Of a DNA stretch of 34,034 nucleotides, positions 9,954 to 10,469 are shown piece by piece. The position numbers and the translations under genes are program-made. The notes beneath the pieces were generated by a model. It saw only the letters and a list, made by a program, of their open reading frames with translations. It made no database searches and was not told the DNA's origin. The stretch comes from Bacteroidota bacterium (GTDB lineage Bacteria; Bacteroidota; Rhodothermia; Rhodothermales; JAHQVL01), in assembly GCA_039111535.1 (NCBI GenBank), contig JBCCIM010000048.1:1-34034 (forward strand). Reading direction: 5' to 3'. Each line of letters starts with the position of its first letter. Position 1 is the first letter of the stretch.

Positions 9954-9991
9954 ACCCCCCCACGTCATGCCGACTTGATCCGGTATCCAGA
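9954..9991 (+). repeat. Left inverted repeat flanking the GIY-YIG gene
   Basis: These 38 bases, containing ACTTGATCCGGTATCCAGA, match the reverse complement of 10336-10370 with about one substitution and one missing G over the 33 or so shared bases. The core resembles the widespread dispersed bacterial repeat that, when translated, reads PDLIRxPE. Confidence 0.8.
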
Positions 9992-9997
9992 ACTAGG

Positions 9998-10288
9998 CTA
10001 CATCAATTCTGAACTCAAGTCTACCCAATTAGGGTTGATCGACTCGATCAATTGTAGCTTCCAGATCCGCTTCCAATTCTTGATCTGTTTCTCTCTGGAA
10101 AGAGCAAGACCAATTTCATCATGCAGTTCATAGTACACGAGGAGATTAACCCCGAATCTTCTAGTAAACCTGTGAGCCACGCCGGCTCTATGCTCCTCCA
10201 TCCGGCGGGAGAGATCGCTGGTGACACCAGTATACAGTGTCCCATTTCGTTTGCTCACAAGAATGTAAACATATCCTTGTTTCGGCAT
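9998..10288 (-). CDS. Small GIY-YIG nuclease-domain protein (UPF0213 type)
   Basis: The 96-residue product is essentially one GIY-YIG domain. VYILVSKRNGTLYTG supplies the two tyrosine motifs (Tyr8, Tyr19-Thr-Gly), DLSRRMEEH supplies the conserved Arg, and SREKQIKNWKR carries the metal-binding Glu near residue 66. The length is normal for the stand-alone YhbQ-like group. These proteins are probable structure-specific DNA nucleases, but their cellular role is poorly known. The gene is isolated between the lipoprotein and AbgT genes and is bracketed by inverted repeats at 9954-9991 and 10336-10370, so it may be part of a small repeat-bound unit. All key residues are present and it looks functional. 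Confidence 0.9.
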   Translation of the reverse strand: MPKQGYVYILVSKRNGTLYTGVTSDLSRRMEEHRAGVAHRFTRRFGVNLLVYYELHDEIGLALSREKQIKNWKRIWKLQLIESINPNWVDLSSELM

Positions 10289-10335
10289 CTGGCTTTTACC
10301 AGATAGACGACTACAGCAGCGCTGGTATAACCTGC

Positions 10336-10370
10336 TCTGGATACCGGATCAAGTCCGGCATGATGTGGGT
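10336..10370 (-). repeat. Right inverted repeat flanking the GIY-YIG gene
   Basis: This is the inverted partner of 9954-9991; its outward-facing strand contains TCTGGATACCGGATCAAGT. The pair encloses the GIY-YIG gene and nothing else. Confidence 0.8.
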
Positions 10371-10424: not shown

Positions 10425-10469
10425 AAAACGCCTCAGCATTACCGTTTGAGGTTGATGCTGAGGCGTTTT
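10425..10469 (-). terminator. Terminator hairpin after the AbgT gene
   Basis: AAAACGCCTCAGCAT (10425-10439) and ATGCTGAGGCGTTTT (10455-10469) pair perfectly over 15 bp with a 15-base loop. On the minus strand the stem ends in a TTTT run, as expected for a rho-independent terminator 35 bases after the AbgT stop codon. The A/T flanks would let it act in both directions. Confidence 0.85.

Follow-up and report, generated by a model that had tools for sequence, protein, structure and literature searches.

Mini GIY-YIG nuclease genes enclosed by inverted CGTC-type REPs: a candidate repeat-bounded mobile unit resembling REP/RAYT systems in design

Bacterial REPs were divided by their tag into two superfamilies, GTAG and CGTC, in the survey of Di Nocera et al. 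2013 (PMC3733652). GTAG REPs flank RAYT transposases, which probably mobilise them (PMC3733652). CGTC REPs consist of a CGTC, TGTC or CCTC tag, an 8-9 bp stem starting with paired AT, a loop of 4-5 nt and a CCA tail; they are present in many dispersed copies, frequently form inverted dimers, and take in the dRS3 repeats of Neisseria and the RPE-4 and RPE-6 repeats of Rickettsia (PMC3733652). According to their describers, CGTC REPs seemingly have no transposase of their own, no RAYT or IS200 gene flanked by them was seen, and the families are mobilised perhaps by a broad range of transposases (PMC3733652). REPs are also frequently located downstream of genes, where they act on transcripts (PMC3733652). 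A 2025 REP survey cites this work and mentions no nuclease (PMC12306157), and in the open-access literature no paper linking GIY-YIG with REPs, CGTC, dRS3 or palindromes was found.

Several described systems are close to the locus studied here. REP/RAYT systems (REPtrons, REPINs) combine one small enzyme gene, the HUH Y1 transposase TnpA-REP, with inverted REPs of a class that is also dispersed without the gene; they carry a one-sided GTAG tag beside the hairpin and are patchily distributed. Homing endonucleases occur among GIY-YIG enzymes, and those of the I-TevI type share with the present gene the catalytic domain and the character of a one-gene mobile entity. Small UPF0213 proteins (PDB 1zg2, BH0048; 1ywl, EF2693) share Pfam domain, size and fold with the protein described below, and Slx1, a structure-selective endonuclease for branched DNA, shares the GIY-YIG fold. 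Slx1 differs in its additional domain, its need for Slx4 and its housekeeping role.

In this study, a 34,034-nt stretch of DNA from a Bacteroidota bacterium (hereafter, the window) was analysed together with the rest of its genome, its relatives and homologous loci from other phyla. A reading made from the sequence alone had described a nuclease gene framed by a near-perfect inverted repeat. The two arms (9972-9991 and 10336-10355) are indeed 20 nt long and 100% complementary, a further 14 nt outside both of them are 93% complementary, and the single ORF between them matches the GIY-YIG family with an E value of 2e-17 (Table 1). Apart from small defects, each arm is a complete REP of the form CGTC-ATGCCGGA-CTTGA-TCCGGTAT-CCA, and the tags of both REPs are directed away from the gene. 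The two REPs are slightly worn; the left one has lost one base in the 5' half of the stem and folds poorly, and the right one has CATC in place of the CGTC tag. The core GACTTGATCCGGTATCCA occurs twice within the window, both times in this unit, against 0.04 expected. Separate from the REP unit, a perfect 15-bp inverted repeat, AAAACGCCTCAGCAT, with a T/A run lies at 10425-10469 and is likely a bidirectional terminator separating the unit from the downstream transporter gene.

Table 1 Features of the proposed unit in the window
Feature	Position	Strand	Description
Proposed REP-bounded unit, tag to tag	9963..10365		403 bp; sole gene is the GIY-YIG gene; based on inverted repeats and sequence
Left CGTC-type REP	9963..9989	+	Tag CGTC, stem-loop ATGCCG-ACTTGATCCGGTAT, tail CCA
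GIY-YIG endonuclease, small UPF0213 type, 96 aa	9998..10288	-	Pfam PF01541, alignments, AlphaFold2
Right CGTC-type REP	10338..10365	-	Intact 8-bp stem ATGCCGGA/TCCGGTAT (one G-T pair), loop CTTGA, tail CCA

The repeat had also been assigned to a common dispersed class whose translation reads PDLIRxPE. Both parts of this assignment agree with the genome: MPDLIRYPE is one reading frame of the right-hand repeat copy, and 42 copies of the core at no more than 2 mismatches are dispersed in the 6.6 Mb genome, with none for the reversed control. The general repeat pattern was found in 58 copies. Aligned genome-wide copies (CGTCATGCCGG...) give CACGTCATGCCGGACTTGATCCGGTATCCAG, comprising the CGTC tag, the stem with its single G-T pair, the CTTGA loop and the CCA tail, and inverted dimers are present in relatives. 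Judged by its structure, in which every structural feature of the superfamily was found (tag, stem, loop, tail, copy number and inverted dimers), the window repeat classifies as an ordinary CGTC-tagged REP.

The GIY-YIG domain makes up nearly the whole enclosed protein, since PF01541, its sole Pfam match, covers residues 5-77 of 96, and the catalytic residues are retained: Y8, Y19, G21, R29, E66 and N85 are invariant in an alignment of 30 relatives. An AlphaFold2 model was obtained with a pLDDT of 92.7. Its fold neighbours by Foldseek are the UPF0213 protein 1zg2, the only match with E below 0.001, and Slx1, with probability up to 1.00 and an E value of 0.06; 1zg2 and 1ywl are the only solved structures among the sequence relatives. 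The dN/dS values of mini GIY-YIG genes lie between 0.03 and 0.21, which indicates that the protein is maintained by purifying selection. Near some distant homologues in relatives (~40% identical, e.g. L101-L103), CGTC REPs were not found.

The sequence-only reading had stated that it would be refuted if the repeat were widespread yet statistically unlinked to GIY-YIG genes; what was found is a very strong association by distance, by gene control, across genomes and by class pairing. In 40 relatives, the density of GTCAT hairpins was 0.89/kb in the 300 bp nearest to GIY-YIG genes and about 0.05/kb at distances above 1 kb, with a permuted-word control near 0.02/kb. A second set of 80 homologous loci was picked by protein similarity alone and covered Alpha-, Beta-, Gamma- and Deltaproteobacteria, Bacteroidota, Nitrospirota, Omnitrophota, Patescibacteria-type lineages and others; here the density was 4.9/kb within 150 bp of the gene versus 0.07/kb at 4-10 kb (permuted words, 0.02-0.07/kb). 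Because REPs prefer intergenic DNA, the GIY-YIG genes were compared with other genes of the same loci. Of the 74 GIY-YIG genes, 37 had a CGTC-type REP on each side at no more than 250 bp, versus 1 of 792 other genes (p 4e-43); a narrower definition gave 24/50 versus 1/677. None of 17 large GIY-YIG genes such as uvrC was flanked by REPs, and about 28% of the homologues in the 74-locus set had no detectable REP within 250 bp. A Neisseria gonorrhoeae record carries its GIY-YIG gene within a dRS3 array, and Sinorhizobium carries one among CCTC-tagged REP dimers. In the window's own genome, a second small GIY-YIG gene that is intact (L002/L071) likewise lies inside inverted repeats that have a CGTC tag and a CCA tail and whose stem, ATGCCCAA/TTGGGCAT, is unlike the window stem and altered on both sides. 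The mini GIY-YIG genes of two apparent exceptions, genomes G065 and G299, are present without REP flanks. The pairing of CGTC-type REPs with a mini GIY-YIG gene is general across many phyla, whereas the published account of the superfamily names no enzyme.

Besides these results, several local arrangements were observed. At L002, tandem arrays with units of ~113 bp on one side (1062-1455) and 104 bp on the other (1752-2062) face each other across the GIY-YIG gene, each unit carrying one CGTC REP. The window's own genome also has a third small GIY-YIG gene (L003/L090, contig C85, 24618-24893), which is interrupted by a TAG stop and has a worn CCTGAG-type repeat, TTCATCCTGAGCCCCGCGAAGGATCTGG, directly downstream. 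The REP-free mini GIY-YIG genes of G065 (L341, L345) adjoin direct repeats resembling tRNA 3' ends, which suggests another mobile context.

The geometry of the window unit recurs at other loci. The nearest upstream REP was on the plus strand in 29 cases versus 11 on the minus strand, and the nearest downstream REP was on the minus strand in 42 versus 8 on the plus strand; the two arms were identical at 16 of 37 loci, compared with 1.2% between loci. Tags are therefore usually directed outward from the gene and arms are matched. Gene-less dimers in relatives were arranged tag-out in 19 of 24 close neighbours and look like the unit minus its gene. These observations bear on a reading in which the nuclease is a host enzyme for hairpin or cruciform processing, the REPs regulate, terminate or insulate its gene, and neither has a role in mobility. 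A fold like that of the branched-DNA nuclease Slx1 and the frequent position of REPs 3' of genes, acting on transcripts (PMC3733652), are in keeping with this reading, but regulation does not need inverted REPs with outward tags, nearly no other gene is flanked by REPs on both sides, the mini genes are patchy and multi-copy with up to 9 copies per genome, and empty sites exist (see below). We consider it improbable.

The repeat class follows the enzyme subfamily. On the Bacteroidota enzyme tree, the class of the associated repeat changes 19 times versus 43.9 times after shuffling. Shared taxonomy could produce such pairing, so labels were also shuffled within genomes, being swapped only among paralogues (92 labelled genes of 132, in 59 genomes); 25 changes were observed versus a mean of 40.5 and a minimum of 30, and 0 of 1000 shuffles were as low. 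Genomes G010 and G031 have three paralogues apiece, associated with three different repeat classes. Repeat class and GIY-YIG subfamily thus form a stable pairing by descent, which could stem from co-inheritance without recognition in trans. At the genome level, in 296 genomes of the phylum counted regardless of relatedness, the ratio of gene presence to absence was 61:8 where any of three repeat classes was abundant and 73:154 in the other genomes (p 3e-17). Dispersed copies were commoner in genomes having GIY-YIG genes flanked by the same class (p 7e-4, 0.014 and 0.011, also regardless of relatedness). In several repeat-rich genomes, namely G041 with 171 TGCGAGG-type copies, G216 with 27 CTGAA-type repeats, and G111, G162 and G255, all GIY-YIG proteins are of the UvrC type or otherwise large; to account for these genomes, one must suppose that the enzyme was lost in the past or that another enzyme is at work.

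The association can also be read as that of a passenger, in which the REP pairs owe their movement to a RAYT, to another transposase or to recombination between REPs and the GIY-YIG gene is carried by chance or for selection. The describers of CGTC REPs suggested a broad range of transposases (PMC3733652), and activity of the enzyme in trans is a step that we infer. Against this, the GIY-YIG family alone, set beside some 800 control genes, is regularly enclosed, in many phyla and with pairing of subfamily and class, and no RAYT or IS200 gene was found flanked by CGTC REPs (PMC3733652). Of the alternatives weighed here, this is the one to which we give least credence.

Empty sites, which the sequence-only reading had proposed to look for in close strains, were found at two sites by comparison between species. 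On plasmid AZO_p3 of Azospirillum lipoferum 4B, the sufB-sufC spacer of 617 bp contains the gene with a REP dimer on each side, a unit that spans 509 bp from tag to tag. The corresponding spacers of A. oryzae, A. ramasamyi and B510 (~95% identity) measure 87, 91 or 129 bp and contain neither gene nor REP; the spacers are too diverged between species to place the exact junction or a target-site duplication. Filled and empty alleles at another site were found on Shinella plasmids, and the empty ones are likewise without REP. Since the empty sites are REP-free, REPs and gene came or went together. In genome G106, two copies of the gene lie 6.4 kb apart and are identical over ~386 bp; on the right the identity ends no more than 2 bases from the outer REP tag, and on the left it ends inside the REP. 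With presence and absence at otherwise conserved sites and a duplicate that ends at a REP tag, the unit appears, from these sequence comparisons, to be mobile.

Other candidate sites were set aside. The Sinorhizobium hflX-mazG site, with its shorter match in K101, is not empty, as the gene is present in both strains, which have different numbers of REP dimers; usable empty alleles were not found for the Rhizobium CIAT894 and Neorhizobium EC2-8 plasmids; and a search for an empty site of the window itself through the neighbouring 302-aa protein, which has no homologue in genomes G001 and G002, was uninformative. Two distant identical copies in G154 lie at opposite ends of one contig, inside 6 kb of identical sequence that most likely reflects overlapping assembly, and were not used. 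Tandem arrays in which a GIY-YIG gene recurs every ~420 bp (L225 in G098:C86, 1931-3231, with one REP per unit; L226 in G175:C63) and large tandem repeats in G221 are real, yet they do not define the ends of the unit.

The empty sites also bear on the main rival, in which the GIY-YIG gene homes into pre-existing REPs and parasitises the repeat family without spreading it. Homing endonucleases are known among GIY-YIG enzymes, many units lie inside REP arrays (L002, Neisseria dRS3, and L221 with a left REP that differs between two copies), and some REP-rich genomes are without the gene. However, at the best two empty sites, sufB-sufC of Azospirillum and the Shinella locus (compared between species), no REP is present without the gene, whereas an empty allele that keeps the recognition site would be expected if the REP were that site. 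Homing enzymes reside in introns or genes without matching terminal palindromes, and neither matched inverted arms nor class-specific pairing would obviously be kept by a homing gene. We judge homing unlikely, although less so than the two readings above.

Taking the observed structure, linkage, class pairing, presence and absence, purifying selection and within-genome duplication together, we give a probability of roughly two in three to the reading that this is a mobile unit of ~400-500 bp bounded by REPs, whose sole gene encodes a repeat-class-specific nuclease and which is similar in design but unrelated to RAYT/REP systems. The unit would consist of an inverted pair of CGTC REPs with tags outward and CCA tails inward around one GIY-YIG gene, as in the window and, at 509 bp, in Azospirillum. 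We infer the steps of recognition, cutting and copying as follows: the nuclease would recognise the REP hairpin of its own class, probably as single-stranded or cruciform DNA, and would nick or cut near the CGTC tag; host replication or repair might then place copies of the released or broken REP pair elsewhere, either together with the gene or lacking it. The gene-less tag-out dimers would be non-autonomous derivatives, standing to the unit as REPINs stand to RAYTs. Because GIY-YIG enzymes cleave DNA by hydrolysis and have no strand-joining activity, reintegration would need host repair or template switching.

The likeness to REP/RAYT systems that had been drawn from the sequence therefore holds for the design and not for membership. 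As in those systems, the enzyme gene lies inside inverted REPs of a class dispersed in the same genome, both in the window and at other loci. Unlike them, the ~95-codon gene encodes a GIY-YIG protein rather than an IS200/IS605-like HUH Y1 transposase (the only Pfam match is PF01541 and the fold matches 1zg2 and Slx1), the tag is CGTC instead of GTAG, and covalent strand-transfer chemistry is not expected.

We also lean, with somewhat less assurance, towards the wider proposition that stand-alone GIY-YIG mini-nucleases are the missing dedicated mobilisers of CGTC REPs as well as of the related TGCGAGG-type and CTGAA-type GTCAT repeats, with enzyme subfamily matched to repeat class. The 2013 survey left the spread of CGTC REPs open; these repeats, Neisseria dRS3 and Rickettsia RPEs among them, are found in many phyla, the mini GIY-YIG enzyme is the best candidate yet for spreading them, and a steady enzyme partner makes the question one for a simple nuclease assay. 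If the reading is true, few known self-contained mobile elements would be smaller than the ~400 bp REP-GIY-YIG unit, and the REP/RAYT strategy would have arisen independently a second time, such that parasites made of a hairpin repeat plus an enzyme would have evolved at least 2 times with unrelated enzymes. A role would also be assigned to a large set of small nucleases without an agreed function.

Two further observations concern repeats in particular genomes. In genome G013 (L077, L094, L096, L098), several GIY-YIG paralogues lie near another palindrome, GCCTCTGGCGCCAGAGGC, which is possibly a further repeat class tied to the GIY-YIG family. On contig C1 of the window's own genome, at ~64333, 66623 and 68860 (L007, L008, L027), REPs are located just upstream of a sequence reading TAYPNPFN, which resembles type IX secretion sorting tails; the repeat translates in the same frame as RHAGLDPVSR, and these REPs appear to lie within the coding sequence of tandem paralogues.
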